Source of the DNA: Symbiodinium sp. CCMP2592
Taxonomy: Eukaryota > Sar > Dinophyceae > Suessiales > Symbiodiniaceae
DNA: 64,000 nucleotides
Assembly: GCA_905221615.1 (NCBI GenBank)
Contig: CAJNDT010005925.1
Span: 1-64,000 of the forward strand
Direction: 5' to 3'
The position numbers and the translations under genes were made by a program. Below, one piece after another: positions 27,557 to 62,603 of the stretch. The notes beneath the pieces are model-generated. The model was not told the DNA's origin, did no database searches, and saw only the letters and a list, made by a program, of their open reading frames with translations. Numbering within the stretch: the stretch's first letter is position 1; every line of letters begins with the position of its first letter.

Positions 27557-27652
27557 TATCCCTAAGGGTCCAAGTAGTCCTTATTTATGGTTTTTGATAC
27601 CCATAAAGGCCCTAAAAGTACTAAAATAGGGAGTACTTGGAGCCTCTGGGTA
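27557..27652. mobile_element. Hairpin element, type B copy 1
   Basis: The left end TATCCCTAAGGGTCCAAGTA pairs imperfectly with the right end TACTTGGAGCCTCTGGGTA; inner arms (CCTTATTTATGG against CCATAAA) extend the hairpin. It begins and ends with TA. Relatives are at 42948, 51121 and, more loosely, 34453. Confidence 0.6.
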
Positions 27653-28930
27653 TGATAAGCAGGACGAACAACTTTGGGCTTTGCTGCATTTGGGGGGAGC
27701 TCGGTAGGAAGCTTGCTGGGTAGGAACCCGAACAGCTTAACGTGAAAATCTCATGGCCCAAGCATGCTGAGCCAAGCTGAGCGCCCAGAGTTGGCGTCTT
27801 TAGGTCAGCTCATAGGATTAGAACTCAGGGTGTCTGGAACCCGAACCCTCCAGTAATCTTCAGATTTGTCAGGGGTTGTAGCTTACCGTGTTAAGACTTG
27901 AAGTCGAGCTAGACATCACAGGACACGGAGTTTAGGACTGGGGTTCATAATCAAGTGCCATGGTAGGTTCCCCGACTAAGAAGGAGAAGTATCTGCTGCT
28001 GAATAACGACTGGGTATGTGAATCATGAAGGGTTGTGTTGAATTGAGGATTTCCAAACTGTTGGGGTACTACAAGTACGGCTCCTACCTGTTAGTAGTTG
28101 CTGGGGGCAACAGCAAAAAGGAACGCCAGTCGTTGATATCCACATGTGTGGTCCCGAAGACACCACGTACACAGTCCGTAGAATCAAAACTTCATCTCAA
28201 CTCCCACACAACACTATGAACGCAGAAGCAATGTCAGGCCATAGGATGGTACTGAAGATGATGATGAAGGTTCTGTCTTTTTGTGTTACTATCAATACCA
28301 AACTGCTATCACGGTTTTGGACAGATCCGTGTTAGATCTACAAAGTCCGTAATCCGAAAGTCTTAAACCCTCTTCAATGCCTCCTCGCTGCTCTTAACTG
28401 TGTTGCTCACTATCACCATAAGCACTACATATCCTTATATATGCTCCAAGCAGGCAATAGCAAGAATCCATGTCTGCTACTTTTGTGGTTCAAGTAAGAT
28501 TAGCGGAGACACCACACTTTCCGCCTGACCCTTGTCCCCCACTACAACCCGGCAGATCCCTTAAAAGGAACCCTAAGAACCCCGTTAAAACCTATAAACC
28601 TTAAACCCTAACCCGCCTTTAAAGGAACCCCGAAGAGACTCCCTTAAAAGAGCCCGCAAAACCGTAAAGGAGCCCTTCAAAAGGAACGTGCTCTCCACCT
28701 GGCCCTGCGCCAAAATGCGCTTCCGCTGGGCTTCAAGGCGATCTCGGATTAGATGCCTCGCTTAGGTGTTGGGGGTTAAGGGGTTTAGGGCTTAGGGTTG
28801 AGTGACATTTAGGGGTGTAGGGTTTAGGGGTTTAAAGACATTTAGTGGTTTAGGGGCTTAGGGTTTCGGGCCCATGGTTTAGGAGTTTAGGGCCGAGGGT
28901 TTAGGATTTAGGCGGGAGTTGGGTTCCTTT

Positions 28931-29070
28931 ACTTGAAGGGTCGGGGGACTTAGTTAGTTCGTACTTTTGTAGACTTACAGGCACCCTAGAATACTGTAGT
29001 GGTTTAAATGAAGGTTATGATACTTATAAGTCTGTAAGATAAGTAGTTACTGAGTCCCTCGACCGAAGTA
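28931..29070. mobile_element. Hairpin element, type A copy 1
   Basis: The left arm contains GGGTCGGGGGACTTAGTTA and the right arm the degenerate complement TACTGAGTCCCTCGACC. The inner sub-palindrome ACTTATAAGT is shared with other type A copies. It is more diverged than the copy at 30923. Confidence 0.65.
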
Positions 29071-29840
29071 AGGCCCCCATTTAGATGTTCATTCAGGATT
29101 GCTTTAAGGGTTCTTATAGGCGTTGAGGTTTAATGTGTATATAAGGCTTAGTTTAAGCGGTCCTTTAAAGGTTACTTTTAGGGTTCCTACGAAGGGGGGT
29201 TCGGTTAGGGTTTAGGGCTTCAAGCTTGAGCGGTTCATCACGGTTCCTGCAGCAATTCTTTCAAGGGTTCTACGAAGGGGTGGGAATTTGAGGTTGTTGT
29301 TTCAGGAATATGATCATGGTTCGGGTTTATAGGTACATATCATTTGGGTCCATCAGGTGAAGGTTGTAGAGTTGCTCGAATCAGGCTACCCCAAAGCTTC
29401 CGTGACCCATGTGCGAAGGCTCTTGGGCTAAGCGGCGTAAATGTTTTAGTTGTGTCAGACGTTGCAGTATAGGTGCCTGCGTGATATTATGCCCCCCCAA
29501 ATCCAAAACCCATCAGCCTAAACCCCATACTCTCCTCTTCAATTGCTAGATTCTGACAGCCGACGCACCCTAACTGCCCGAACTGTGGGAAGGTAGGCTT
29601 TGGGTTTTGAGGCTTAGAGTGAATTCGGGATCCCCCTGGCACCGGTAAGACGGACATATGTGGACCTTAGTCGTCTAGAATCATACAGAGACTCTTTTGA
29701 AGATACGGTATATAACTCAACTTCGGGTCTCTGTGGTATGTTGGACCCTCCCTGCATTCGGCTTAGGGCTTAAGGCTTAAGCCACATCTCGGGCTTCGAA
29801 AAACCCTACCAGGCCTGAGCCATGCTTGCAGCTCCTGTTG

Positions 29841-29960
29841 CACTCCATCCAAAGTGAAGATGTGGGAGCAGCCTCCTGTCGAGCCACGTTTTAGGGTTTA
29901 GGGTTTAGGGTTTAGGGTCACTCCATCCAAAGTGAAGATGTGGGAGCAGCCTCCTGTCGA
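29841..29960. repeat. 42-bp direct repeat flanking a perfect telomeric tract
   Basis: The same 42 bases (starting CACTCCATCCAAAGTGAAGA and ending CCTCCTGTCGA) occur at 29841-29882 and 29919-29960 with no mismatch. Between them are 36 bases, mostly four perfect TTTAGGG units, preceded by GCCACG. Confidence 0.9.
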
Positions 29961-30922
29961 CAATGCAAAGGCCTTCGTAATTAGCAGAGGGCGGGGGTTA
30001 TAGTAGTATAGTGGAGTACACTTATCACAAGAAGCCACAATATACTCGTTTTTATAATCAGATACCCTGAGGAAAACTGTTGCAAACTGCTCAGGCCCTC
30101 TATTCTCTGTGTTTTGAAGATGTTGGGATACACAGGGCTTCTGTGACTGCAGGGGTCAGGAGCTTGGGCTTGAGGATTCCAGATTGCGGATTTAGGTTGA
30201 GGGCGGGTGTCTGTGTGTGCGCATGCATTGATGACCGGAGTCTTAAACCAAGTTAACCCTTATGTGATTCTTATGCCTGGGAATTACTCCCCAAAAAGAC
30301 AACAACAGCCCAAAACCCCACACACCAACCTCTGCCAGCCCATACATTGTATACACTTTGGCCCAGGTATCTCTATAGGGGCTACTTTACGCCCAAAGTA
30401 CTTTAGAAGTATGCGGACCCTCCTCTGAGCCACTTCTGAACCAAAGGATCGAACACGTCGAGACAAGCAGTCAGCCGATACTTCTTCGCTTCCAAAGCCA
30501 TTCTGCTACTCACAGCCAAATACTACTCCTCATTAGGGCTTAGGTTTAGCAGATCAAGGCTTTGGGTCCTGAGGAATTATAGGGTTTGGAGCCTAAAATC
30601 TAGGGAATAATTATCAGCGGACATAGGTGTTATTCTGATGTCGGCGTCATCGACACCTCTATGTTGGGGAGGTAATCGCCCGAATTCCTGACGGACCTGT
30701 GCGAGCTAAGTATCATTAAAATGCTACAGTTTTGACAATTGCCTACAATGTAATATTTTGGTTCCCTGATCTGTTGTTACAGGACACTAGCCATAAAGCA
30801 AGCCACACAATAAAACACGTACTACTCTGTCAGTGTAGGGTCTAGGTAGACAGGAACCCTGAACCCGAAACTGAAACCTGGAACTCCGAAGTTTGCACCT
30901 GAGCCATTTCAACCCCCGCCCA

Positions 30923-31054
30923 CTTGGAGGGTCGGGGGACTTAGTAACTGGTTATTTTAGGGACTTATAAGTACCATAACCCCAATTAGGGTCTCTTTTA
31001 GGGTACTTATAAGTCTACTTACTACCTACTTACTAAGTCCCCCGACCCTCCAAG
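30923..31054. mobile_element. Hairpin element, type A copy 2 (best copy)
   Basis: The terminal 25 bases are perfect inverted repeats, beginning CTTGGAGGGTCGGGGGACTT and continuing AGTAA. Inside them a second inverted pair (ACTTATAAGTACC / GGTACTTATAAGT) flanks CCCCAATTAGGGT. The length is 132 bp, with no coding capacity. Confidence 0.8.
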
Positions 31055-31680
31055 CAACCATAATATAATATGCCCCACAACCCTAGTCGAACTTTTAAGC
31101 CCCCTGTATTGACCTTATAGACCCCTTTGAAAGGCACCCTAAACCCAACCGATGCCTGACTTATTTCGTGGGGGCGGTGGCTTCTCTGGAAGCCGAAGAA
31201 TTTCTTCGAGCACCTGCGTGGGGCTTCAGGGATACGAGTCTAGTTCTTTTGTTGAACTCATTGTTCCGTCCGGCTAAGCATCCGAAAGGCCGCGAATAGC
31301 CAGGAGGGTATGGCCTACGGTTTAGAGTTTATGGTATATACGGGCTTTGGGGTTTAGGGTTTGGGGTTTAGAGAGTCGGGGATGTTTTCTGAGTCAGGAT
31401 CCGGGTTAACGACAGGATGGCACACAACCCCGAACCCAAACTTCAAACCCTAATCCCAAACCCATTAAACCCCTAAATTGCGACCGGTTGAGGCTGAATG
31501 TGCTCACGGCTGTGTAGATGTTACAGAGATAAGACAGACAGCAGGCAATGGAGCCTGCTGGCTTCATGGTCAGGGTCTATGGCTAAAACGTAGGGCGTGG
31601 GGTTTAGGGCAAATGGACCGTTCGGGAATCCCACAATGCTCGGTTGCTCGCTGGAAAAGGTCAAACGGACAACAAACAAA

Positions 31681-31831
31681 CAGCGCAGCATAGCATAACA
31701 TAACATACCATATCATGACGAAGCAAACCGTATCATATCATAGCATAGCAGAACACAGCATATCAAAACTCAACACAGCATAGCATGGCATACCCTAGGA
31801 AATCCTTGCATAGCATAGCACAGCAAAACAG
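31681..31831. repeat. Degenerate CATAG/CATAA pentamer array
   Basis: Units such as CATAG, CATAA, CATAC, CATAT and CACAG recur every five bases, with loss of phase, through about 150 bases. Confidence 0.75.
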
Positions 31832-31959
31832 ACCGTGGCTCCACATAATCTCGTCGAAATCAATCCATGTATGTATGTGCGTGTGCGTGCGGATGGGTAT
31901 ATATATATACACTTACACATGTGTCGAGCTCTGGGTGTTTGAATGTATATAAATATACA

Positions 31960-31967
31960 TATATATG

Positions 31968-32000
<33 letters not shown>

Positions 32001-32006
32001 GCGCGT
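31960..32006. repeat. TA microsatellite
   Basis: ATATATGTATATATATA passes into GTATGTATGTGCGCGTGCG. It is simple sequence, not coding. Confidence 0.8.
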
Positions 32007-32161
32007 GCGTATCCGACACATCGACATGAGAAGACACATGTCACAGCACGTGATATAAACTGCACATGCACAGGCAGGCATACGCTACCCGCAACGAAAG
32101 CATGTGTCTTCATACATGTCCTATCTTTTACTGCCCTAACTATCTGTCTACCTATCTCCCT

Positions 32162-32300
32162 GTCGCTACCTCTCTCACTCTCTCTCTCTCTCTCTCCCTG
32201 TCTCTCGCTGTCCGCATCTCTTCCTCCCCCTCGCGCTCTCTCTCTCTCTCTCTCTCGCGTCTCTCTTTCCGTCTCTCTCTCTCGCTTGCTCTCTTGCCCG
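32162..32300. repeat. CT-rich microsatellite
   Basis: (CT)n with CCCTGTCT, CGCT and CGCGTCT interruptions; it produces artefactual Ser-Leu frames. Confidence 0.85.
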
Positions 32301-33177
32301 CTCTCTATCCAAAGATCGATGTACCTGTCATTATATATGTATCGATCTATCTACCTGTCGATCTCTCATCTCTCGTTATGCCTATCTGTTTATCTGAACA
32401 TCTACCTGTCTATTTTCACTATCTACTTGTCTAGCTATCTATCTGTCTATGGGTGTGTCTCTGTATCTCTATCCATCCCTCGATGTGGCGATCGATCACG
32501 TCATCTTTGAACATATCACAGTCTTTCGAAACCGTTGCGACGGCCGTGAAGACTTTATCGCTGCCTTTAGTTTTCGTTGCAGACCATGTGCAGCTCTGTG
32601 TCCTTGATGCCAAACAGAGAAGCAAACGTTCTTGAGAGCCCGGACACTCTTAATATTAACAATCAGACACCCCTGAAGCCTCAAACGTTCCAGTCCCAAA
32701 GCAGCAAACCTGAAACCCCAGATCTACTTTAACGACACCTACACCAAACAACCTCACAGCCATAAACCCCTTAACTCTGAGCCTGATGCCCCGAACTAAA
32801 CTCTAAACCCGGACTTCAAGGTACAACCCTAAGCTCTGAACCTTAAACTCATACCCTCCTTCAACCAAACCCTGAACCCTGAAGCGTAAACCTACTGTAG
32901 GAGTCTAGATAAATACAAAGACGATTCCTTATGGTTCTTAATATAGTTATACCATAAAGGAGCCCCAAACCCTATTCTAATTTGCAAGGCCCCTACATTC
33001 TAAACCCTCTTAGTGACCCTTAAAGTAATCCTTATAGACCTCTTTAAACAGAACCCTTTAATGGGAACCCTAAGGCCACAACCAGGCGTGGAAAGCCCTG
33101 GGTCTTTTTCAGATCTCATCGACACCACCCGCAGCACGCGAGCCAGCGAAGACCCCAAACGCCTGCCAGGCTAAGGC

Positions 33178-33287
33178 TAATGTAGGAACCCGATTAAGAA
33201 ACCTTGGGCCTTTATTTGGGTTCCTTATATGAATCCTACTATTTTGGGGTTGTAGGCCCAGGGTTTCTTAATCAGGTTCCTACATTA
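33178..33287. mobile_element. Hairpin element, type C
   Basis: A 110-bp near-palindrome. The ends TAATGTAGGAACCCGATTAA and, on the other strand, TAATGTAGGAACCTGATTAA start arms of about 35 bases with only a few mismatches (both continuing GAAACC..GGGCCT). Both ends carry TA. Confidence 0.8.
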
Positions 33288-33296
33288 CCTCTACCT

Positions 33297-33384
33297 TTCG
33301 TCTCGATTGTAATTCCTTTTTGGGACCACTTGAAGTATTGGTTAGCTTAAGACTAAATGAAAAGGAACTACAATGGAAACTACG
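33297..33384. mobile_element. Hairpin element, type D copy 1
   Basis: GTCTCGATTGTAATTCCTTT pairs with AAAAGGAACTACAATGGAAAC. It starts only about ten bases after the type C element. A relative lies at 62524. Confidence 0.5.
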
Positions 33385-34452
33385 GGCCATAGGTTCGGGC
33401 GTACCACAGAAGCCAAGATAATGCGGGTTCTACCAGGGCTTCAGAGAGTTTTCGAGAGTTTACACGGACCTGTATCTAAAGGAGTCACGATATGGGCCTC
33501 AGTCCGGGCGGCCTTTTGATTACATGGGGTGTCATCATTTCTGACTCGGTACCTCTGGAGGAGAGTCTTCCGGACGCAGGGGCTCTCCTTGTGCGCAGGC
33601 CTGCCCTCGTCTTGTGGCCCGCACGCGCGCCGGCAAGGATCGCGATGTTTTCAGGCGTCACCGCCTGCACCAAGGGACCTAAATCCTCGACCCAGCTGCG
33701 ACAGGCATTCTTAGGTTTACATCACCTGCTCCTGACTGTAAGGCGGTAGTTGTTGTGGTGCCAGCAGGTCTCTTTCCCCAGCCTTACGCAGCAGCCAGAT
33801 TTAGGGAAACACGCTACTTCACGTGGTGCACTGCTGTGGCACGTCTGAACAAACAGGAGTAGCTGATAGCCTTACCTCTCACAGTCTTGTCCAGGCTTGA
33901 AGATACATGTTTCGGAGCCTTATCGATGTAGTCGGTCAGCGTTGCATCACCCAGCTGCAACTCCTGCCCCAGGCTTCGGAAAGGTAACAGTCGAAGGGTG
34001 CAGCAATGTGCGTGTGTAGTCTCTGATCTGCTTGCCACTGGCTTTATTAGGATCTCAAGATTCGGGTTTGATTGCAATGTGCAATCACCCTCCATCCATG
34101 AAGGACGCCAGCTTTGAGGTTCCGGCACAGTAACTGATGTCTTTGTATGCAAAAGCTTCATGCGAGAAGACTGCCTGAACATGTAATAAAAAACTCTCGT
34201 CCAGGCGCTTGCCCTATTGCTAATACCCCGCAGCGTCAGGCTTTGGGGCAAGTACTGGTGAGCAGTGCCTCCCAACCGAACTCCCTTAAGAAGTTCTATT
34301 GATAACCTAGAGCCTCCATCTACCCTCTATTAGACCCTAAATCCCCCTTCTTTGGGACCATATACCCCTATTCGAGGGTACAAGGAGGGTCCTGGAAAAC
34401 CATTCCTCAAGCCCCGTTCGCGTGCGTTCATGCGGCCCCTTGGCCTGGCATA

Positions 34453-34627
34453 TACCCAGAGACTCCAATATCCCTTAGTTAAGGAATAGACCTTAAATTA
34501 TGATAAGATCCCTAATATGAGTTAAGGTATATTCCTTAATTAAGGAATATACCTTAAATTTTTAATAGGATCCCTCATATGATTTAAGGTATATTCCTTA
34601 ATTAAGGGATCTTGGAGTCTCTGGGTA
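34453..34627. mobile_element. Hairpin element with CTCTGGGTA ends (type B-like, long)
   Basis: A 175-bp palindromic element. The left end is TACCCAGAGACTCCAATATC and the right end GATCTTGGAGTCTCTGGGTA. Arms continue with CCCTTA.TTAAGGAATA and internally repeated AAGGTATATTCCTTAATTAA blocks, so the interior has tandem as well as inverted symmetry. Confidence 0.8.
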
Positions 34628-37996: not shown

Positions 37997-38110
37997 TTCC
38001 CTAAGGGTCCATGTACCCAAATAGGATAGACTTTAGCCTTACTGTAGTCCCTATATAGGTACTTTGGGGCCAAGGTATCTACTGTTTGGATACATGGACC
38101 CTTAGGGATT
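37997..38110. mobile_element. Hairpin element, type F copy 1
   Basis: Left TTCCCTAAGGGTCCATGTAC and right TACATGGACCCTTAGGGA, with the conserved core GGTACTTTGGGGCCAAGGTA. Copies with the same core are at 39021 and 56821. Confidence 0.75.
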
Positions 38111-38571: not shown

Positions 38572-38697
38572 CTTGGAGGGTCGGTGGATTTAGTAAGTGA
38601 GCACTATAGACTTTCAAGTACCCTAACAAGGGTTCTAATATGGGTTACAAGTCTATACAATACTGCTTAATTAATGCTGCTTACTAAGTCCTCCGAG
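38572..38697. mobile_element. Hairpin element, type A copy 3
   Basis: Left CTTGGAGGGTCGGTGGATTT, right CTTACTAAGTCCTCCGAGG, diverged from the copy at 30923. The interior keeps CAAGTACCCTAACAAGGGTT. Confidence 0.65.
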
Positions 38698-39020
38698 GCT
38701 ATATTGAATAGATTCGGGGCTTGGGACAGAGACCCCACAGCACCCTTCACAGGCCCGGTCTGTCTTTCAGAAGGGTTGCTAAGGCTCTACGGGCAGTTGC
38801 AGGTATTCGGAGCTTCTGGAATAGATACATCATGGCATCTTCCGAACTCCTGGGCCTAAAAGGTCAACCTAAACCTCTAAGCCGGGGGTGCCGTGCTATT
38901 TTGCGGACCTAAAAGGGTACCAAACTTAGAGAACTACCCAAACCGTGCACGAGCTCCGAGATAGAGCCAGCTCTGATGTCCGAGCTAGGGATTGAAGGAG
39001 CCTTGTCGCTTGCCCTAAGG

Positions 39021-39129
39021 CCCTAAGGGTCCTTGTACACGAATAGTCTTTACGCTGGCCTTAAAGTAATCCCCATGTAGGTACTTTAGAGCCAAAGTAT
39101 ATACGGTTTGGGTACATGGATCCTGAGGG
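39021..39129. mobile_element. Hairpin element, type F copy 2
   Basis: Left CCCTAAGGGTCCTTGTACAC, right GGTACATGGATCCTGAGGG, core GGTACTTTAGAGCCAAAGTA. It lies about 1 kb from copy 1 in the same orientation of its asymmetric core. Confidence 0.7.
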
Positions 39130-39923
39130 TTGTGTACGGGGTCTTTGTATTCCGCTTAGCGTTTAGTTGCACATCAACGCAGAATCTCGGTCACATCAAC
39201 GCAGAGTTTCGGTTCGGGACTATAAGGGCATACTGTTGCTAGTTTTTTGCCGACCCAGATTACATGAAGCCGGCAACTCCTTAACTATCAACTGCATTTA
39301 TATGCTCTCCAACACCACAGCAACCGGAAACAAAATCAAAACAAGTGTCTTCCTAGCCATGCACTCCCATCCCCACGAGGTAAGAGCCTTTCAACTCAAA
39401 CTCAAGAACCCTAAACAAATCACCCTAAACCTAAACTCTTACAACAAAGCTCTTTTCGCCGAAGCTCCCTAAACCCTAAACTCTGAACCTGAACTCATAC
39501 GACAAAGCTCTCTTCACCAAAGCTCGGAACCAGCCCCAAAATCCTGAACCCTAACCCTAAACCCTAAACCCATCCCAGTGCGGCCACTGTGTGGTTTGTC
39601 CTTGAGTGATCGAAGAGCAATGTCTGTGGCGCCACCACCTCTGGTCTGCCACTGGAAAGGTTTACGGTTTGGAGGTTTAGGGTTTTAGGGTTGGGGGTTT
39701 AAGATTCGACATTGCCAACTCTTCGTGAAACAAATCTCGCTAAGTACCGACTGGGGTGCACCTTCAGCAGACTCCTCTGGTTTGCTTCTGTCTTCGTCCA
39801 ACTACCCCAGCAGTAAACTGCAAGCCTCGGGGACGCATATGTTCCTAGCACTCAAACCAAGGTCCAGCCCACCTGCATGTGATCTACGACTCTTGGTGGT
39901 TCTTGGCCACGCCGCCAAGAGTA

Positions 39924-40051
39924 CTTAAAGGGTCATCGGACTTAGTAACTAGGGTTTAACTAAGGTAACTAGACTTATACAATTACTTATAACCCCAATT
40001 AAGGTACTTATAACCTTACTTACTAATTAAGTCCCATGATCCTCCAAGTAA
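39924..40051. mobile_element. Hairpin element, type A copy 4
   Basis: Left TACTTAAAGGGTCATCGGAC, right GTCCCATGATCCTCCAAGTA. The interior has ACTTATAACCCCAATTAAGG. Both ends carry TA. Confidence 0.7.
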
Positions 40052-42890
40052 GGATCCAAAAGCTGTCACAATCGTTCTGTTTAGAGCGGGGAACAGCTCT
40101 CAAGTCGCCGAGGGGGCCAGTTTTTTCTGTACTTCCCTCTGTCTCTCTCTGGATGTGTGTATGTGTTTTTATATACATATATATATATATACATACAACT
40201 TTATGTGTGTGTATACCGATATCTCATAATATGTACATGGACGCTTAGGCGTGCGCAGGTGTGTGTGTGTGTATGTCAGGGTGGGGGGGGGGGCCTAGTG
40301 CGGATTTCCAAAACTATTCCCTGCCCACGACCATTGCCCGTATACCGGACAGGAAATCCCTGCAATAGATAGCATCATTCCCCGAACCCTGTTTAAAACC
40401 AAAAAATCCGAAGACCTGAAGCCGAACCCAACAAAAACTAAACCCCAAAACCTACACAGCGAAGGCTCATAACCTAAAACAACTTCCTTAAGACCCAGAA
40501 CCCTAAAAACCCTACACCCTGAATCATCTCAAGACCCAAACCTCTAAGACAGCTCCGAGAAGCAGAGGTGCTTAGCACAAGCGCCCAGACGGACGGGAGG
40601 CCAGGTACCGCTGGACTGGCGTTTGGATTTCGGGCTAAGGGTACAAGGGCTCTATACCCTACAGTAGAAGCCCGAAAGTTGGAAATCCAATGGCTACAAT
40701 GCTTAAGAGTAAAGGGAATCCCAGCACTATTTGGCCTTAATCCGGTTTCCAACTTCATGGGGCTTACTGTAAACCCTAAAGCCCTAAACCCTAAATTGGT
40801 GTTTGTTATAGTATCCTTAAGGGAGGGGGCTCCAAGGGGGGTATATAGCCTAGTGATCCCTAGCTCTCCCTAGTACTCCCTAAGGTTCCCTTACAGTCCC
40901 CTAAGGATTCCTTGTACCCTCCCCCCTTGAACCACCCCCCCTTAAGGATCCTATCAGTTTGGGTTGGGTTTAGGTCTTCGGGGTTTGGGGCTTCAGATTT
41001 GGGTTGGTTTGTGGTCTTATACCTGGTTTTGCTTTCAGGTGGGCGCAATGACCCCTTACGACCCTGTGGGGCTCGAACCCACCCCCATATAAGGACTAAG
41101 CGTTAAATCGTAACCCTAACAATCCCTGAACTCTAAACCCTGCATCCCGCGAATATATTCAGGTATTTCGCCATCAAGAGTACTATAGGGGCCTGAACAA
41201 TTAGCATAGGGTGTTGGGGTCCATCATACTGTAATTAGTGTTTAACGAACCCCAAAATAGCAGATCCAGTGTCTTTGATTGGAGATTGGATTGCGGGGGG
41301 TATATATCATAGAATAGTACTACAGAGACGATAACTGTGCGATACGGTATGATGTTTCTAACTAGTCCGACCTCTGCACAAGAGTCTTTAGAGGATTAAA
41401 GCGAGAAGTCTGGATTGGAGTTTGCTGTTTTTGGCATGCAGGGCTTGGCTAAGTTGGCTGAGGCGCTCAGGAGCTGCACGATGCGATGGAATAAACTGAT
41501 GAAACCTCCAACCTTAAACTCGGGAGCCCCCAAACCTTAAACCCTAAATCCCTGAGCCCAATATTCAGAACTCCGTTGTTGAGCTTTCGATTGCAGGCCG
41601 AGACAGCTGGGATGGTTTGAGACTTCAGTTTGAGGTTGCACGGTTGGTTTACAACTTACAGCGGCAGGCCTATTCCTTTAGGCTCACTCAAGACTGCTAG
41701 GATGTGGGGCTCTGGTCTGCTGTTACAAAGCTGCGCATCAGCCAGCGGCCTGGAACTCAGAGGCCATCCGCCACAGCTCCTTCAGAGGGCACTTGCAAGT
41801 ACTTGCAAGTCCACTGACGTGACGTGGGTAGTTTAGGCTCCGTTTTAGGGTCCGTTTTATAAGGGTGCTGCCTTCTTTTGGGTTCCTCAAATGGAACCCT
41901 GCCTACGTGAAAGCCGTGAACTGCACCCGAAACTCGCAACACCTCTAAGCCCCAATCTGTCATGCCGAAGCAGCTTGGTAGGAACTCCAGATTCACCCTG
42001 CACTCAACAACTAAGCGAAAGGCGGCAGAAGACAAAGACACGAACACAAGAGCGTGGGCATATCCACCAAGGAAGCTCGGCACGTTTTGCTCAAAGTTGG
42101 ATGGGGGCCCGAAGCGGAAGAAGAATCTTGAAGGTGAGCCCAACCAAGCCGCACAAGCTCAGCACTTGAGCCTTGATGAAGATCCGGAGACTACCAGAAA
42201 AGTTCAGAGTTTGGAGTGCAGGGTTTATAGAGTTTACTTAACTCCGACACTAGAAGCACTCAGCATGGAACGGCCGACCGCATCAGTTGAAGGAGAACAA
42301 CCGGTGATAATCTGTTTAGGATGTCCCCAGCTCAGATGTGATACTTTGACGGGGTGCAACAACACGCAAAACTTCCTACGGCATCCCCTCAAGCCTAAAA
42401 CCCGACTCCCTGACCCCTTAGATCAAGGCCCCAAGTCCTTAAAGTTTGAAAGCCCAGGCCTCTGACTCATACGGCCCTAAACCTACAAGCCATCCAAAAG
42501 TTGCTTTTAGGGTTTACGGTGAACAGCATCCCTAAACCCAACCCTCAACCCTAAATCCCTATAAACCCTAAGCCTCCCCAAATTTAGTTAGTTCAGCCCT
42601 GAGGCTGAGGTTTAGTATTTTTTTTTTCAATAGGGTTTAGGGTTCAGGGTTTGGCGGTCTAGGCTGTCGACGGGTTTACGGTTTAGGATTTTAGTTTCGG
42701 GTTTAGGGTTCAGGGTTTAAGCTCTACCTAAACCTTAAACCCCATAGATCTCTGATAGAATCCTTTAAGGAATCCCTTAAGGAACCCTTTAAGCTACTAA
42801 GTCCCATGTCAACCCGGCCTCCAGCCGCTCTGCAGGGCCCAGGCAGCCAGCTGCTCCGCTGAGCGACCTTCATCGTCTCAAGGCCGTATC

Positions 42891-43382
42891 TACTTGGAGG
42901 ATCGTGTGACTTAGAAACTTAAAGGGTCCCGGGTTTAGGGTTTAGGGACCCTCAGGCTCCAAAGTAGTTCCTTTTTGGGGGTTCATATTAAGAATTCTAT
43001 AAGGTATTCCCAAAAAGGAGCTACTGTGGAGCCTCTGGGTACGTGGAGGATCGCGGGACTTAGAAACTTAAAGGGTCCCGTAAAGCGGTTCCTCAAACAG
43101 GTTTAGGGTTGAGGGTCTACCTGGAGGATCATGGGACCTAGTAAGTAAGTAAGGTTATAAATACCTGAATTGGGGTTATAGGCTAGGTATTCATAAGTAT
43201 GGTAACTTAAAGGGTCCCGTAAAGGGGCTTTTTAAAGGGGTTTAGGGTTGAGGGTCTACTTGGAGGATCAGAGGACTTAGTAGGTAAGGTTATAAGTAGC
43301 TTAGTTGGGGTTGTAAGTATTTGTAAGCATAGTTACCTTAACTATAACCCTAGATACGAAGTCCCATGACCCTTTAAGTAGG
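42891..43382. mobile_element. Cluster of tandem and nested type A hairpins
   Basis: At least four type A left ends occur in a row, each starting near GGAGGATC (42896, 43045, about 43125 and 43263), followed by ACTTAG and AACTTAAAGGGTCCCG. A type B element (42948-43041) sits between the first two. A block of about 75 bases is duplicated with a 139-base period (43070-43143 and 43209-43282). The final right end is AAGTCCCATGACCCTTTAAG. Confidence 0.75.
42948..43041. mobile_element. Hairpin element, type B copy 2
   Basis: Arms of about 32 bases: ACCCTCAGGCTCCAAAGTAG against ACCCAGAGGCTCCACAGTAG on the other strand, continuing TTCCTTTTTGGG. It is inserted among type A ends. Confidence 0.75.
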
Positions 43383-44768: not shown

Positions 44769-44887
44769 TACTTAGGGTCGGGGGACTTAACTAGACTTAT
44801 GAGTACCTTAAAAAGGGACCGTAATTGGGGTTGCGATACTTATAAGTACACAAGATAACTACTTACCAAGTCCCCCGACCCTGCAAT
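44769..44887. mobile_element. Hairpin element, type A copy 5
   Basis: Left TACTTAGGGTCGGGGGACTT, right CCAAGTCCCCCGACCCTGCA. The interior keeps GTAATTGGGGTTGCGATACT and ACTTATAAGTAC. Confidence 0.75.
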
Positions 44888-46756: not shown

Positions 46757-46874
46757 CTTGGAGGGTCATGGGACTTAGTAAGGTCACTCGCAGCAAGATT
46801 GAGGCTACAATAAGTAGTCATATGAATAGCTACCGTATAACCCTAGTTTCTCTGAGTCTCGTGACCATTTACGT
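46757..46874. mobile_element. Hairpin element, type A copy 6
   Basis: The left end CTTGGAGGGTCATGGGACTT is intact; the right end is degenerate (GAGTCTCGTGACCATTTACG). Confidence 0.55.
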
Positions 46875-47010: not shown

Positions 47011-47012
47011 GA

Positions 47013-47044
<32 letters not shown>

Positions 47045-47136: not shown

Positions 47137-47167
<31 letters not shown>

Positions 47168-47168
47168 A

Positions 47169-47240
<72 letters not shown>

Positions 47241-48283: not shown

Positions 48284-48426
48284 CTACGTGGGAGGGTCGG
48301 AGGACTTAATGAGTAGGTATTAAGTAGACTTATAAGTACCCCAAACAGGGAACCTACTTGAGGATATGATACTTACAAGTCTGTAAGAATAAGTACCGTT
48401 TATCCCCCCACCCTCCAAGTACGTAG
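48284..48426. mobile_element. Hairpin element, type A copy 7
   Basis: The outermost bases CTACGTGGGAGGGTCGGAGG and CCCCACCCTCCAAGTACGTA pair. The interior has ACTTATAAGTACC and ACTTACAAGTCTGTAAG. Confidence 0.65.
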
Positions 48427-49620: not shown

Positions 49621-50088
49621 CTAAAAGTAGATGCAGCCTTGGTGAAGCAGTACAAGGTTGCAGAAGCGACAAGCAGGGGCGGCAGGAAGAGTGAAGTCAC
49701 TGGTAGACGTAGAACGACAACAAATGCTACGGAATGTTGGCAATATGACTATTCGTTGTCGCTGCTGCTGTCCAGCACTCCAGACACAGAGTGCTACTGC
49801 AAAGCCACACAGAAACGACACGAGCTTAAGCAAAGTAGCCCACTCCGCCATGGACAGAGAGGTCGTCGATAGCATCAGCAGCACCTTCTTCAGTGATTCT
49901 TTTTTGGTGTCCGCATGCAACGTCGGTCTCGCGGCACGGGAGTTAGAGGATTCTGTGCTTGGCAAGATTAGCTTGTTGCCCACTCGCCGTGTCATTGGGA
50001 AGATTGGATTCGGCGGTTCTGGCATCGGCTTGCCGTGGGCAATCGTGGCAGTATTGGTAGTAGTAGAAGTAGTCGTAGTCGCAGAAGT
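49621..50088. other. Spacer left of the triplet array
   Basis: This is unique sequence. Open frames on both strands run from here into the array, but those frames are created by the triplet repeat. Confidence 0.4.
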
Positions 50089-50595
<507 letters not shown>

Positions 50596-51120
50596 GGTAG
50601 TAGTAGTGCGAGCTGTAACAGTTGACAACAACACTTTTAGCTGTTTGATTGTTGCTCCCCATATTCCTTACAATGATTGCTGCGAAGCTTGCCCATGAAA
50701 TTCGTAGGACCCCGTGATCACTGCATCCTTCTTGACCACTCCAAGTCAACAGCTGAGGCTGCGGCCATCATAAGTCTGTTGAAGACTTGCGCCATGGTTG
50801 GTGACGGTTCAGTGGTATCAAGGATAGTATAGAACGTGGACCGGCAAGCTTGAGCCAAGGCCATTTAGGATCAGTGCGTCTGGGATCATTATAAACTCCA
50901 GTGTAGGCATTCGAATGATGAGGCCGCGGTGAGGCCCCTACTTGTATCTAGTACCTAGAAAGCAGCAAGCCTGAGGAGGCTAGGCTGTGACTCTGGAGCT
51001 CGTTGTCTCTACTCTCTAACCTTGGATGGTTCAACGCTAAGGATTTTACCGCTTGCCAGGGAATAGCAGCGAATAGCAGCCAAGACTCTAAAGACCAAAG
51101 ACCCCAAACACCACACCTAA

Positions 51121-51199
51121 TGGTCCAAGTAGTCCTTATTTATGGCTTTTGGTACCTCATGCCATAAAGTCCCTTAATATGGAGTACTGGGACCTCTGC
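51121..51199. mobile_element. Hairpin element, type B copy 3
   Basis: GGTCCAAGTAGTCCTTATTT at the left is identical to the copy at 27557 over about 22 bases; the right arm is GGAGTACTGGGACCTCTG. Confidence 0.65.
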
Positions 51200-55122: not shown

Positions 55123-55232
55123 CACTTGAAGGGTCATGGGACTTAGTAGCTGGGGTAAGTAATAACTAAGGTAACTGTAGTTAAATGTGGAACTTCTTGC
55201 CCTATACTTACCAAGTCCCATGCCCCACTACC
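55123..55232. mobile_element. Hairpin element, type A copy 8
   Basis: Left ACTTGAAGGGTCATGGGACT, right TTACCAAGTCCCATGCCCCA; the interior is short and diverged. Confidence 0.6.
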
Positions 55233-55567
55233 CAAGGCCTTCGGCCACGCAGCCTCAATCCGGGCCCTCCAGGCCAAAGCCACCCCTGGGCTTCGAAAGG
55301 TCCGGCGTTTAACTTATATAGTGCAATTGAAAGTTTCGGGGTTTAGGGTGTGGGTTTTTCGGGTGGTTTTGGGGGGATTGGGGGTTTTTATGTTGTGGGT
55401 TTTGGCGGGCTTTGGGGTTTGGGGCCTACGGGAGAACGACCAAAACAGAAAGCGCATGTTGCCCTTGTCCTTCTTCTTGTTCTAGGTTGAAGCCTTTTCG
55501 GGCTTCGCACCTTGGGGATTTACGGGTTCTAGGCTCCTTGTGTCATTTCGTGGAAAGACCTATATAC

Positions 55568-55649
55568 CCTTGGTTAGTAGGGAATGGAGGAATGGGGAAT
55601 AATTATAACTACTATTGCTACCATTCTTCCATTCCCTACTAACCAAAGG
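55568..55649. mobile_element. Hairpin element, type H
   Basis: 82 bp with 28-base arms differing at about two positions: CCTTGGTTAGTAGGGAATGG and, on the other strand, CCTTTGGTTAGTAGGGAATG, both continuing GAGGAATGG/GAAGAATGG. Confidence 0.8.
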
Positions 55650-55745
55650 TAAGAAGATCCAGGAGGAGGTTGAGGTTGGGCGGAGACCCCAAGGGCCCAA
55701 GTCCCTAATTGATCATATACTCTCCAAAATCCTAACCTGCATAGC

Positions 55746-55851
55746 TACGGCTGACGATATAAATCCTGCATTACCTTAAGGACCCTAAACCATGGGAATT
55801 ATGGCATACTTCTTCTTATGGGTAATGCAGGATTTATATCATCAACCGTAC
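55746..55851. mobile_element. Hairpin element, type G
   Basis: The inner 20 bases, GATATAAATCCTGCATTACC, are a perfect inverted repeat (55756-55775 with 55821-55840). The outer TACGGCTGAC / GTTGATGATA arms extend it to 30 bases. Confidence 0.8.
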
Positions 55852-56820
55852 TATCCTAAAACAGAGTACCTAATCATTGGGTCCTTTGGTTCCGTTGGGC
55901 CCTCGGGGAGAAGTCTATGAACTGTTGTTGGGCGGAACCCTAAACCCTAGTTACAATCCCTAACCCCTGTAGCCCCTAAACCCTAAACCCTGGGTGGTCA
56001 CTGCTACCTACTCTCCCACAGGGTCCGAGCACCGAAATAGTGAAGTTTTAGGTCCCTACTCCGAATGGTTTTTGGACCTTGAACCCCTACTATTTGGGAA
56101 TTTGGACCCCTGAGGGTCTGCTACTTAGTCTGGGATACAGGGTCTCGGACTTATCACTCGGAGCTGTTCTACAGAGTGGACCCCAGACCCTAAATCCGAA
56201 ACCCTACACCCTGGAGGTCCCCTAAAGTAGTTTGAAAACCCCACGCCACAACACATTCCCTTGCCATGTGTCCCTCGGGAGCTGTGCTGACCGGCTCCAT
56301 CGTGCTGGACGTGGAAGGCGTTGGCGGGGACTGCCTCAGCGTTTCGCAACCCCCTGTAAACACCGTGTAGGGTTTTAATATGTTTTAATTTTACACCATG
56401 GGTCCGGATCACTTTGATTTTCTGTCGGATGTTTTCGGCGGGCCTGAAGTGCTGTAAGAAAAAACCATTTACTAGTTGAGCACTTGAACCCTCCGGGCAT
56501 GCCAAAATTCCCAGAGTCCTCGTGTCGGAGTCTATGTTCAGGAATCACCTGTGATGAAAGCGTGTCATGCTGGCACCACGACTCCTGCATCTTTGGATGG
56601 AAAGCCCGTAGCCGCAGCCCTAAACCCTGAGCCCCTGGACGTTTCCCCAAACCCTAAACCCCGAAACCCCGAAACCCCCAAATCCCCAAACCCGCAAAAC
56701 CCCCAAACCCTAATCCGTGCATTCCGAGACGCTTTGCCTCCAGAGCCACCGGGGCCGGCATGTTGATCCCACGTCGAAAGAAAGGTTGGCTCTCCTTGGG
56801 CATAGGGTCTAGGGTTCTGG

Positions 56821-56940
56821 GGCATATCTCTACGGGTCCCATGTACTCACATAGCAAATCCATTGGCCTTCGAGTAATCCCCATAGAGGTACTTTAGGGC
56901 CAAAATATGTACTACTTCGGCACATGGACCCTTAGGGCAT
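56821..56940. mobile_element. Hairpin element, type F copy 3
   Basis: The right half (GGTACTTTAGGGCCAAAATA, then CACATGGACCCTTAGGGC) matches copies at 37997 and 39021; the left arm is degenerate (ACGGGTCCCATGTACTC). Confidence 0.6.
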
Positions 56941-57573
56941 ATGGTTGAGTGCGGGGATCTTGGGTGCAGGGTTAAAAGGGGACCCTAATTTGAGAACTAC
57001 CCATATTTCGGTTTTGAACTGGATTCTTGTTTCAAAATTTAGTTTAAGTTACTATAATGGGGATCTAAATTGAACAACAGGGCTGAATTATGATAACTTA
57101 AATTAGATCCAGTAACAACAATGCACTTAAGACTTGGCCTGCTGGTTGCGGCTGCCCAAAAAGGGACCCTAGTTTAGAAACCTGCCCATATGGTTGAGTG
57201 TGGGGGGTTTACGATTTCGGGACTATGGCAGGTTTACCTCGTTGTACACTTAGCTCATAGGTGCCTTTGTTGTAGGCTGTGGGGTTTGGGGTTGAGGATT
57301 CAGTCTAATGCTTCATTTGCGATGTGGGGTTTTGGAGTGTTCCTCGGCATGCAAAGATCTGGCATTGGACGTGCTGACATGTCTGTTGAAAGAGGTTGAA
57401 TTGTAGTCTAGAAATCCGGGTGAACAGCAACATGTCGTTTTTTCGCACGGCTTGCAATGATCTCGCGAGCGGATGCTGCAGGCATTTGCCCGTATCGACA
57501 ATCGCCCAAGAAAGAACCCGGGAAACAAAGGTTGGCTGAGGCTTCCAATGAAAACACTGAAGCCGAAGTTAGT

Positions 57574-57585
57574 GCTACTACTAGT

Positions 57586-57660
<75 letters not shown>

Positions 57661-57679
57661 GCTACTGCTACTGCTACTG

Positions 57680-57743
<64 letters not shown>
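57574..57743. repeat. (CTA)n trinucleotide array
   Basis: About 56 CTA units with a central GCTACT-type interruption (about 57660-57681). It is the same motif class as the (AGT)n array 7 kb upstream, in the opposite orientation. Poly-Leu, poly-Thr and poly-Val frames are artefacts. Confidence 0.9.
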
Positions 57744-58667
57744 ATCTACATCATACCCGGTACCAGACTGCAAGACCTTAAACGTTAAACCCGAGACCAA
57801 ACCATAAGCCCTAGGAGGACTTCAAAGCTGCCAAACACCCCACAGACTTCCAGGTTCCCCAGTAGCCCCTTAATTGCAAGGGTAGCCTTTTTCCTACCAC
57901 ATGGTTTTACGAAGGGAGCCCTCAAAGAAAAAAGGCAAACAAATACTACTCGGGAATCTAGACCCGTTAGGATCCTACATACACTTTCTAGTCTTTCTAG
58001 CCTTTCCCAAACTCCAAATCAGCTGACGGAAGCCCGGATTTCTTGTGGTAGGCCGGGCTGATCCAATAAGTACGTACTTGGGTTTAGGACACGGCCGCAG
58101 GAAAGTACTTTGGGGGACCCTCAAGACAGGCTACTGCTCCCATGTACTGACGGCACGGGAACTGAGCTTTTAGCTGGGCTAACAGGGAACAACTCAGGGA
58201 ACAATGGCCAGGGCTGCTTTCTGCGGCGTAGTGCTCACGATTTCTGACCTCTGAACCATGAACCGTTTTGACCGCTCCCTCTGTGCCAAGAGGCCACCAC
58301 ACTCTGATCGCGCACCTGCCATGGAAGGCTCTTGGGGCTTCTAGGTCTACGGCTAGGATGCAGGTGTAAAGTACCCCTTCCAGTTTCCAAACCGACCCAA
58401 CAAAACCCACGTACAAGGTTGCGTCGTTATCCTGCATCTTGTCGCTGGTTTCGGGTTCCGCGTGACACCCGTGTCGAACCTCTATGTAACCTCAGTTGCA
58501 CCAGAAAGTGGTTCCACAGGGACCCGTGCCTGATCGACCACGAACTTTCTATTCCAACCCTCAACAAGCCCTAAACTGCTAAACCCTAAACTCCCATAGT
58601 CTACAATCAAGACTCCAAGCTCAAAGCAAACCTAAAGCGCCGTCGTTCACAAGCACAACCCCCTCAA

Positions 58668-58785
58668 CCCTAAACCCCAAACCCTGAGCACTTAAACCCA
58701 AAACCCCGAAACCCTAAACCCTTAAACCCTAAACCCCAAACCCTGAGCACTTAAACCCTAAACCCCGAAACCCTAAACCCCTAAA
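58668..58785. repeat. 59-bp tandem duplication of telomere-like sequence
   Basis: Two adjacent 59-base copies (58668-58726 and 58727-58785) both begin CCCTAAACCCCAAACCCTGA and contain GCACTTAAACCC. They differ at two positions only. Confidence 0.9.
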
Positions 58786-59576
58786 TAACCCTAAACCCCT
58801 CAACCCTGAACCCTTAACCCCAAAACCGTGGACCGACACGAGCCAATCTCTGCCTTGGTGCAGATCTTCAGATGCTGCTTCAAACCTAGGATTTAGGTTG
58901 AGGGATTTAGGGCTTCAGGTTTGAGGTTAGGGATGGTTAGGGCTTTGGAGTTTATGGTCTTTCGGGCTGTGGGCTTAGACTTCGTTTAGGGCTTCACCGG
59001 CTTTTGGGGCGCAAGGGCCCTGAAAGCGAAGAGCCGATTCTAGACCCTGGTGCTTGAGCGGTCTGTATGTTTGGGATTATGGATTATGGACGCCACTGTT
59101 TAAGTTGCCTGAAGGAAGGAGTTGCGAGACTTCCAAGGTAGGTCTTGTGCTCTATGCAAAGTCTACCCGGGTACCTCTGCTGTGGCAGCCCTGACCCTAG
59201 ACACGAAACAAACACTAATGTCGCCAAACCCAATAGCCCGAACACGAACAACAAGCAACCCAGAATTGATTACTCAAGACCAATGAAGCGTGAAGTCGCG
59301 CTACTGGCACTAAATGTGGTCGCCCCTTTCCGAGATTATATCTATATACACATATATATATATATATATATATATATGTAGATGGTCATGCAATATACAT
59401 ATGGATACAAACCAAATTCAAGGCAATAATCTCTAATCAACATCTTTGAAAGGCATCCACAGCGCCCCAAAATTCTCCCTCAAATCCGGAAGTGTATAAG
59501 GAAAGGAGCGTTTTTCGAACACCGTGTGGTTCGGGTCCAGCGGACACGGGATTCGCGCGCCGTTCCTGCGAGAGGA

Positions 59577-59670
59577 TACCACTATGGGCTATTAGACCCT
59601 AAAGATCCCTATTAGGACCCTATTAAGGGTAGATTAAGGTACCCATAAGGTCTAATAGCCCATAGTGGTA
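59577..59670. mobile_element. Hairpin element, type I
   Basis: 94 bp with perfect 22-base ends, TACCACTATGGGCTATTAGA plus CC, and the exact complement at 59649-59670. TA is at both outer ends. Confidence 0.85.
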
Positions 59671-61231
59671 CCCGATCAGGGTTGCGAGAATCAGTCGCAG
59701 GGAAACTCCAGCCAGCTTTTTCGGCGGGTCGAGCAGTCGCATGGAATCTCAAGGAGTGACAAACCACAACCCTAAACCCTAAACAATTAACCCTAAACCA
59801 CAAACCCTAAACCACACGTCCAAGCCAGAACTCATTCAGCTGCAGTCCTGCCCTCGTCGGCATTCTCTTGGTGTGCTCCACACATTGCCTCTGCTGAGGG
59901 TATTTACAGGGGTTACGTTTAGGGTTTACAGGGGCTTAGGGCTTAGGGTTTAGAGTTACGGTTACGGTTAGGATTGGGGGCTCAGTGTAGGGCCCTGGAA
60001 ACTCCAACCTCTGAGCCCCTAAAGGACAAGGCGCACACCATGTAGATACATCGAGCCGGAAGAGAATGTAGATGGGGGTTTCCGCAAATTTGGGGTACTT
60101 TTTTGGGGGGGTCCTTATCATAAGGATCCTACTATTTCTGGTCTTATACTCGGGCCCTCTATTTTCGGAAACTCCCAACCAAATCTCAAGCACCTGTAGG
60201 AAAGAGCATGGGCCTGCCATTTCATTCATCAGGCAGGATGACCTGATCAAGGTGATCTCACCTGAAGGAACAAGACAAACAAAGCAATCCCCAACACTAA
60301 GCCCCCATCCAAATTCCAAAATCTTTGGTGCTATAGCAGAAAAATGCCAAGATGCGACTGAACCTTCATGGATTAGCTACAACTGCAACTGAACTACTTA
60401 TCTTCCGAATTATCGCCCTCAGAGCAAAACCTCTACATGTCCCTGGATGTTCCACTACTGCTGAAGAAGACGAGCGGCGCTTCCCGGAAGAACAGGAAAG
60501 CGGCAACGCCGGCCCTTGTTGGGCACGACATAAGCACCTCAGAGCAGAACAGTGTCCTCTCTTCTTGAATTCGTCTTGAAGGTTGAAAACCATGGCCCCT
60601 GCCCATGCACTAGAATGTGTCCTGAAAAACACCGATGGCCTACTCTGTCCTGGATGCGAAGATGACCCCCCTCCCCCCAAAAAAATAAACAAGGCCCCAA
60701 ACACTCAAGCTCCAACAAAAGTCTTGCCCTGAACTCCCAGGACCTAGACACCAAGATCCAAAGACTAAACCCGGAATGCCATTCCAAAATCATAAATGAT
60801 ACATCTGACATCTGAGCGACGCCCAAATTCAAATTTCTACATCCGAAACCTGGACCCTAAATCTACCTGTACACTGAATAACCTACCTTTTTAAGGCCAT
60901 GTAGAAGGATTAAATCCTTGTATACACGTCCACTAAAAGGCGGTAAATCTAAACCCTGTAGTCCAAGCCCGGGAGCAACGGGTAATCTCTGCGGGTGGTG
61001 GTGGCAGCACAGCAGCTGTTGCCATGCCCTGTCCAGCTCGGTAAGAACCCCTAAAAACCTTGACAGCAGAACTTAAACCTGACGGTTTAGGGGTTTAGGG
61101 CTTCATGAACCTGAAACCCTATAAACTCTATAACACCAAACACTCCTAAACCCTAAATTCTAGAGGGATTTTAGCTTGCCGGCGAAGAGTGTGGGGGGCC
61201 TTAAGGGTTCAAAGCCGAGCGCGGTGGTTCT

Positions 61232-61315
61232 TACCTAAACCCCCCAAAAGTAAGTAAAATAATGGCCCAATACCTATAAAAGGCTATTATTCTACATACT
61301 TTGGGGGTCCAGGTA
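61232..61315. mobile_element. Hairpin element, type J
   Basis: 84 bp: TACCTAAACCCCCCAAAAGT on the left and TACCTGGACCCCCAAAGTAT on the opposite strand at the right, continuing AATAATGGCC / AATAATAGCC. TA is at both ends. Confidence 0.75.
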
Positions 61316-62404
61316 CTTCTGAATCCGTATGTTGTCATCAATATAGGGTGACGCGACTTTCATTAAGCTTCTGGTTGAGACATTGCAAGATTAATAGTGA
61401 CAGGGCCCTGCAAGGGTTCTATTCTATGGCTTTTGAGAAAGGCACACTGTCATAATTAACTACACTTAACTTGGGACCTTAGCACTATTTTAAATTTAGC
61501 TGTTTCTCGAGGAATATCATAACCCAAAATTAAGCAGTATTTCTAAGTACTCCTAAGATAAGCAGCCCAGCAGCCGAAGAAGCATACATTCTCTCGCAGC
61601 AAGTTCAAGGCCCAACAAGTGTAACCATAAATATGAAGGACCAGCTGTCTAATACCCTGAACCCTGAATCCTAATACTGCGGCTCGCCATGCTCTCGGGC
61701 ATGCTGCCTCTGTTCAGTAGTTTACATAATTGTTTTGTACCCTTTTCCCAAGGACACTCCGCTCGAGCGTTTTAGACGCCACACACACACATACCCTATA
61801 CCAGCCCTGCAGTACAATGAAATCGGACTACAGAGCGTTTCTTGGATGTCCGCGCCACATGTCCCGCAAGCTGCCACTCTTGGGAAGCTCCGACACGGCG
61901 GCAGCAGTGGTTTCTCACTCAAGTCTGGGCTGTAACAGCTCGTGTAGAAGTCTCAAAAAATGGTTATCTTATGCCTTGCTGGTATTCCTTATTCTAAACA
62001 TACTTGACCTAAACCCCCAATCTTACTCAACATGCTCGAACTACTGGGGCCCCTATATTAGACGCCTCGTGGGTCAAGTGTTGCCTCGAGCAGCTTGCGA
62101 AGAGAGTTTGCGTTTAGGAGTTTGGGGTATGGCGTCAGGGTCTGTTTGCCAAAGCACTCTTTTAAAGACCTGAGCCTAGTATGTCGATTCACTCTCTAAG
62201 ACAAGATTCCATGGTCCTTTCATGGACGTTGCGACGGGCTTGGCTTCGGGGCTTTAGGGTTGATAGTGCTGATATTTCGTTTAACTTGTAAGCTACGCAC
62301 TGAAGCCTTCGATTCGAGGCTAATGTTCTGCAATTGAGGGTGCCACAGCTAGATGATCACGGGCTTGCTGCAAAAAGCATCTCGAGCATGGGCCACTACA
62401 AACC

Positions 62405-62511
62405 CCCGAAGGGTCCTAGGTGCTGTTATGGGGATACTTCCCCAAATCATGATAGTAATTCCTAATGTAGAAACCCTACATTCTACCATATAGCTACTTA
62501 GGACCCTTTGG
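62405..62511. mobile_element. Hairpin element, type E
   Basis: GAAGGGTCCTAGGTGCTGTT pairs imperfectly with TAGCTACTTAGGACCCTTTG. The interior repeats the pairing with TGTAGAAACCCTACA. Confidence 0.55.
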
Positions 62512-62523
62512 GACCATGCCTTT

Positions 62524-62603
62524 AGTCTCCATTGTAATTATTTTTACATAGGTGTTCCTCGAAGTAAAACTGGCTAGCCAGAAACAGAGCTACAATGGAG
62601 ACC
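62524..62603. mobile_element. Hairpin element, type D copy 2
   Basis: AGTCTCCATTGTAATTATTT pairs with AGAGCTACAATGGAGACC. It abuts type E, as copy 1 abuts type C. Confidence 0.6.

Follow-up and report, generated by a model that had tools for sequence, protein, structure and literature searches.

Miniature inverted-repeat transposons in a window of the Symbiodinium sp. CCMP2592 genome and tandem transposase arrays that share the ends of one family

The analysed window covers the initial 64 kb of the 1.66-Mb contig C5063 of Symbiodinium sp. CCMP2592, a strain described as S. tridacnidorum in an extract of PMC8045281, and the genome searched was the assembly of 1,098,105,373 bases in 5,383 contigs. 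From about 27.5 kb onwards the window contains hairpins of 80-185 bp, which are short and non-coding and bear terminal inverted repeats with arms exceeding those of shuffled sequence. These hairpins are non-autonomous DNA transposons of the miniature inverted-repeat transposable element (MITE) type. It is very probable that they make up several MITE families, one of which, family I, shares its ends with Tc1/mariner-like tandem arrays holding a miniature element as their terminal repeat. The hairpins are listed below (strand "." throughout). The family letters A-K were assigned independently and do not correspond to the letters A-J of the preliminary description of this DNA.

30923..31054, family A copy, best preserved, CA flanks on both sides
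28932..29064, family A copy, diverged
38572..38700, family A copy
39923..40048, family A copy, TA flanks
43122..43186, family A, partial
43259..43379, family A copy, TA flanks
44774..44886, family A copy
46757..46871, family A copy, diverged
48290..48420, family A copy
55124..55226, family A copy, diverged
37999..38107, family B copy, 3-bp duplication ATT
39021..39129, family B copy, without 3-bp duplication
56835..56937, family B copy, without exact 3-bp duplication
27560..27645, B/C-related hairpin
30338..30421, B-related, diverged
51116..51195, family C, second copy
56015..56112, B-related, diverged
62405..62512, B-like hairpin, 3-bp duplication ACC, recognised by eye
33182..33284, family D
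33300..33385, family G, diverged
42950..43039, family G
34455..34625, family E, near-complete palindrome, TA flanks
40808..40953, family F
55566..55650, family H
55748..55848, family I, TA on both sides, ends matching the tandem arrays
59574..59673, family J, without a second copy in the sampled loci
60074..60176, family K

A local tandem duplication at 43065-43315 includes part of a family A copy. The inverted-repeat search was performed after masking of 8,792 low-complexity bases, with four dinucleotide shuffles as controls. Between 26 and 64 kb it returned 22 inverted repeats scoring at least 14 (6, 7, 8 and 6 in the shuffles), 9 scoring at least 18 (0, 0, 0 and 1) and 6 scoring at least 25 (0, 0, 0 and 0). 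The first 26 kb were at the chance level, with 7 inverted repeats scoring at least 14 against 7, 7, 4 and 3 in the shuffles; palindromes shorter than 60 bp occur among both the 22 and the 7. Eleven seed profiles detected 25 copies that do not overlap, the earliest in the window at position 27560, and family K and the B-like copy at 62405-62512 are additional to these profile matches. The hairpins that the preliminary description placed between 27.5 and 62.6 kb are thus confirmed. Its statement that none lie in the first 25 kb holds for profile copies and for inverted repeats above chance, but (TA)n palindromes are present there.

The same profiles were applied to 20 ten-kb loci, 10 on C5063 and 10 on eight other contigs (loci L001-L008 were left out of the profile scans). 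Since these loci were picked by hand at round coordinates, half of them on C5063, they do not constitute a random sample. The number of profile matches followed the density of telomere heptamers, both over the 20 loci (Spearman 0.69, p 0.0007) and over 4-kb bins of the window (Spearman 0.73, p 0.0013); the 5 loci with fewer than 5 heptamers contained no match, and the other 15 contained 81. The density in telomere-repeat-rich DNA is approximately one profile match per 1.5-2 kb (25 in ~38 kb of the window and 81 in 150 kb of the loci). The concentration in such DNA is strong but not absolute. The heptamer-poor loci still contain 6 unclassified hairpins and 2 K copies, which rules out strict confinement to the telomere-like half, and no profile match was obtained in locus L022, which has 12 heptamers. 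Moreover, the families are not restricted to this contig, and their copies occur genome-wide. An insertion preference or a loss from gene-rich DNA may underlie the association with telomere-like repeats. These repeats are equally dense in many other loci, and their presence in the window is no sign of a chromosome end.

The dispersal of the families was followed in the genome search, in which 40 of 961 candidates for family A and 40 of 2,762 for family I were scored. Family A gave 39 other copies of 95-99% identity, stopping near the element ends, and family I gave 39 other copies of 90-95% identity with precise ends. For these two families, such genome-wide copies exclude both a single segmental duplication and repeats lacking defined boundaries. 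Dispersed copies of B, D, E, G and H were present in the sampled loci, and J was found once only.

Target duplications were counted after leaving out L037 and L038 (a duplicate contig), the family I copies that belong to arrays, and any copy in which the two ends could not both be recognised (11 of 32 in A, 1 of 13 in B, 1 of 4 in D, 1 of 3 in E, 5 of 9 in G, 2 of 7 in H and 0 of 12 in I). A 2-bp duplication flanks 18 of 21 copies of family A (TA 15, CA 2, TG 1), a number reached by 1 of 2,000 permutations, and a 3-bp duplication flanks 8 of 12 copies of family B, reached by 0 of 2,000. In family I a 2-bp duplication was found in 9 of 12 copies (TA 8, AA 1). The remaining counts, each from few copies, were 2 of 4 in G, 1 of 2 in E and 1 of 3 in D. 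Six near-identical A copies, kept outside these counts, are flanked by CA on both sides (5 of 6) or by CA and TA (1 of 6); their bias toward CA results from the ranking query, which included CA flanks. All 5 copies of family H have TA on both sides, on the left within CTTA (4 of 5) and on the right within TAAG (4 of 5), and because of this conserved context the TA may be part of the repeat. The family H hairpin of the window and its copies in L009, L023, L024 and L036 include several with CTTACC..GGTAAG ends, which resemble a 5' splice site on each strand.

The suggestion that the hairpins target TA is thus borne out for family I and for the majority of A copies, and fails for family B, whose 3-bp duplications indicate that it is not TA-targeting; family A itself also uses CA and TG. 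The difference between 3 bp in B and 2 bp in A rules out TA-targeting by all hairpins and leaves their assignment to one superfamily unsupported. The target duplication of PIF/Harbinger elements is 3 bp, typically TWA. This superfamily was considered for family B, in which the duplicated triplets are TAA, ATT, CTC, TAG, CTT, TGG, AGA and TTA, with TWA in only 2 of 8.

A Tc1-like transposase in arrays with matching ends, a candidate for the partner that the preliminary description had envisaged, was found for family I. The PF01498 search of the genome gave 23 matches, many of them in tandem, and copies of the family I end motif adjoin these Tc1-like transposases. The array unit consists of a Tc1-like transposase and a second open reading frame (ORF), and its length is 4,495 bp on C557, 4,966 bp on C3713 and 3,571 bp on C2846; units within one array are 99.7% identical. 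At the array edges homology to the units stops at TA and a terminal repeat with this end motif (left edges: C557 at L029:179, C302 at L035:748 and C3713 in L039; right edges: C557 in L034, C302 in L036 and C3713 in L040). With C558 included, all four left edges and all four right edges have TA next to the terminal repeat, and the arrays read at both edges begin with the left terminal repeat and finish with the right one. TA follows the outermost right ends and not the internal right ends. End pieces of ~240-250 bp, measured from left to right terminal repeat, number 6 on C557, 5 on C302, 3 on C3713 and 2 on C558, and the transposase matches number 5, 4, 2 and 1, respectively, i.e., n units plus one extra end piece. 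The end motif is present also as an internal inverted copy within the array end piece. Contigs C302 and C3338, compared as possible alleles, are 100% identical over 3,067 bases, and therefore one of them is probably a duplicate contig.

Thirteen hairpin arms from the window were compared with four array units. The two arms of family I agreed with the C557 unit at 21 of 24 and 23 of 24 positions and with the other two first-type units at 19-21, the shuffle maximum being 17. The arms of the other families were at or below their own shuffle maximum in the four units, which rules out a partnership of the arrays with families A-H, J and K; for these, no transposase with matching ends was found among the array units compared. 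The exception, a K arm at 21 of 24 in L033, comes from a K copy located in that locus. The terminal repeats of the first-type lineages (L029, L030, L033 and L040) share C(T/G)GTTGATG and AAATCCTGCAT, and the four bases between them differ. Judging from these repeats, the four variable bases are possibly a lineage-specific recognition code.

The end piece also occurs outside the arrays. With one array end as a query (40 of 150 candidates scored), end-to-end solo copies at 100% identity were found on C1079, C191, C5331, C5200 and C4899, all five with TA on both sides and with unrelated flanks. A sixth solo on C613, at 90% identity, has by eye the same TA and unrelated flanks, and further end-piece copies at 66-90% identity lie elsewhere in the genome. 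Pieces of the C3713 lineage at 86-90% identity (C1297, C5171 and C5107; 17 of 17 candidates scored) and second-type pieces at 98-99% identity (C4940, C5185, C642, C5218 and C2024, among the matches listed; 40 of 452 scored) are, from their coordinates, presumably solos as well. Since the end piece also stands alone at TA sites, the terminal repeat of the coding array is in itself a complete miniature element.

The search for empty sites, a check proposed at the outset, gave one clean site. Joined at a single TA, the sequences on either side of the C5200 solo align without gaps at 69 of 74 positions to an uninterrupted K hairpin (L031:3214-3287). The 82 joined-flank queries, run against 0.3 Mb of sampled loci, gave two partial sites that could be aligned and fit insertion, one for a B copy in L009 (compared with L024 and L016) and one for an I copy in L019 (compared with L025); the other spanning matches were telomere-like repeats. 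High copy number, sharp ends, target duplications and the clean empty site support the mobility that had previously been only supposed.

The second array type has different ends and is bounded by TA on C558 (left L042:759, right L031:3058), where the array, with one unit and two end pieces, has the composite form. Terminal repeats of this type also delimit, at both ends, gene-less tandem arrays with a unit of ~733 bp on C291, C2757, C4017, C1460, C260 and others. The spacings were tabulated by hand, with C62, C1496, C2242 and C4646 among the contigs excluded, and 85 of 103 fall within 725-745 bp (12 arrays on 11 contigs, among the matches listed), so that at least 11 contigs carry such arrays. 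TA stands beside the ends at the array edges on C4017, C1460, C1446 and C1296; C4017 and C1460 have flanks in common and therefore are probably one locus.

Both transposase types have PF01498 above the cut-off, and DDE_3 is above it in the second type only. Relatives of the transposase number 299 at E<=0.001 (120 listed), and the catalytic D/D/D(E) triad is conserved in 119-122 of 121-122 sequences; counted by position, the first acidic residue is present in 120 of 122 sequences, the second in 122 of 122 and the third, if either D or E is accepted, in 121 of 121. Arrays of the second type also encode a Rep protein with a J domain, an HUH motif and a helicase, which lies beside the Tc1-like transposase at L032:3429-4853 (C2846) and has relatives in Karenia brevis and Polarella glacialis, among others. 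Over 40 sequences the HPD of the J domain, the HUH histidines and the Walker A motif are invariant or nearly so (H163 in at least 90%, H165, and G347-T354). Pfam DnaJ and Gemini_AL1 remained below the cut-off in this protein. Its predicted model has a mean pLDDT (predicted local distance difference test score) of 89.8, and Rep structures are its best fold matches in PDB and BFVD, with TM-scores that are low for the whole chain (0.18-0.32 by query length) and reach 0.5-0.6 by target length for the Rep domain alone. The second ORF of the first type contains HFHVAL and a Walker A-like stretch, recognised by eye only; its model has a mean pLDDT of 37, and a PDB sequence search with its helicase part gave no match. 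A predicted S. necroappetens protein, P0205, combines a J domain with PF01498.

From the anatomy of the arrays, the transposase would act on the two outermost repeats, left and right, and insert whole arrays, or single end pieces, at TA. It may also move the solos and family I in trans. Solos could arise when the shortest left-right segment transposes or when the direct terminal repeats recombine with each other, and arrays by Rep-driven rolling-circle copying or unequal exchange, with the gene-less ~733-bp arrays leaning toward amplification helped in trans; families A, B and the remaining ones would be MITEs of other transposases. Tentatively, and with a probability that stays below even, the arrays may represent a distinct dinoflagellate element class, in which Rep would make concatemers by rolling circle and the Tc1-like transposase would insert them at TA via the outermost inverted repeats. 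Each unit boundary would then be a complete miniature element, and the arrays would continuously shed MITEs (family I and its relatives) and amplify the gene-less ~733-bp satellites in trans.

Several points weigh against the leading explanation, that of several MITE families with one sharing its ends with the arrays. Transposition was read from sequence and not observed. The 2-bp match in family I does not exceed permutation, as 354 of 2,000 permutations attain it owing to the TA in almost every flank, and the joined-flank queries gave only two partial empty sites, both of which match incompletely. By transposase count, C2846 (4 pieces, 2 matches) and C713 (2 pieces, 2 matches) miss the n+1 relation. 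The second array type agrees with family I at only 15-16 of 24 positions, which is the shuffle level. Moreover, family I shares with the arrays ~27 bp of ends and not the interior, and therefore a descent of I from a solo piece is at most a possibility.

The alternative that survives best gives Rep no role, and its chance of being right comes close to an even one. In this account a composite transposon, with an end piece on each side of the genes, would insert once, and unequal crossing-over of its directly repeated ends would expand it to arrays or collapse it to a solo, like a solo long terminal repeat (LTR), the hairpins still being MITEs. The near-identity of units within an array speaks for such exchange, the C558 array provides the composite form, and solos are the expected remnant of collapse. 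The gene-less arrays fit rather an amplification helped in trans, although unequal exchange could produce them too. Much less probable is that family I represents an old array fragment, or an origin-like hairpin bound by Rep, and is not moved by the transposase. The inverted end motif inside the end piece could be understood in this way, as origin iterons might be so placed, and the interiors of I and the arrays differ; however, 8 of 12 I copies have TA at either side, and the ends are precise over 39 copies.

It is likewise improbable that some families are introners, i.e., intron-making MITEs. MITE-like introners are known in the genus, from Symbiodinium microadriaticum (extract of PMC9860276), and the ends of family H resemble CTTACC..GGTAAG. 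However, the introners described in that extract have 4-bp direct repeats, compared with 2 bp in A and 3 bp in B, and the profile matches are concentrated in telomere-repeat-rich loci. Introners of Amoebophrya are also MITE-like, with 3-5-bp direct repeats (extract of PMC7789003), and a review reports introners from dinoflagellates at large (PMC11453091). As far as these extracts go, the window hairpins resemble the introners of both genera in being MITE-like dinoflagellate elements with inverted ends; the introners are set apart by their reported intronic position and repeat lengths. Finally, the hairpins are concentrated in TTTAGGG-like repeat-rich DNA, yet their origin as by-products of degenerate telomere repeats or of local repeat expansion, without transposition, is extremely improbable given the excess over shuffles, the target duplications, arms that are not telomere-like and copies on dozens of contigs with the same end positions, and it is refuted for A, B and I.

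As kinds of element, both MITEs and Tc1/mariner transposons are known, and the window hairpins are ordinary MITE families; what is new here is the array-borne system, with family I ends matching transposase-coding tandem arrays. The hairpins resemble Stowaway-like MITEs of Tc1/mariner in being short and non-coding, with inverted ends, high copy number and TA for I and mostly for A, a parallel drawn from general features rather than from end sequences. They differ from them in the 3-bp duplications of family B and in having tandem arrays as coding relatives. PF01498 in both array types, the acidic triad and TA at the edges connect the arrays with Tc1/mariner transposons, whereas tandem units, direct terminal repeats of ~240-250 bp, a second ORF (Rep in one type) and, in the first type, DDE_3 below the cut-off set them apart. 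The second-type protein is similar to CRESS-type (circular Rep-encoding single-stranded DNA) Rep of geminiviruses and genomoviruses in its HUH-type domain, helicase and fold matches, and unlike it has an N-terminal J domain and lies beside a Tc1-like transposase in TA-bounded arrays. An HUH Rep with a helicase occurs in eukaryotic mobile elements in the HUH transposons Replitrons and Helitrons, from which the arrays differ in their DDE transposase, inverted ends and edge TA. Literature searches, which covered open-licence PMC texts, brought up no paper recognised as dealing with dinoflagellate elements that combine Rep with a Tc1 transposase or with MITEs carried by arrays.

The birth of MITEs from their parents, and their copy numbers beyond those of the parents, is a long-standing question. 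Here the terminal repeat of a coding element is a miniature element identical to solos elsewhere, and therefore the birth step becomes directly testable. A DDE transposase together with Rep in TA-bounded tandem arrays would link cut-and-paste transposons with rolling-circle replicons, and such arrays could account for some of the satellites of dinoflagellate genomes. The hairpin families of the window also help to build a repeat library for the genome of Symbiodinium sp. CCMP2592.

Several other features of the window were noted. The 42 bp at 29841-29882 are exactly repeated at 29919-29960, with a 36-bp insert of four TTTAGGG units between them, and the whole (29841-29960) looks like the capture of telomere repeats at a staggered break. 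Long triplet arrays of GTG/AGT and CTA are present at 50087-50577 and 57575-57743. An ORF of 577 aa at 21607-23340, without a Pfam family above the cut-off, shares 85% identity with a protein of Symbiodinium necroappetens. Its relatives at E<=0.001 number 71, and those with a name come from Symbiodinium and Durusdinium.

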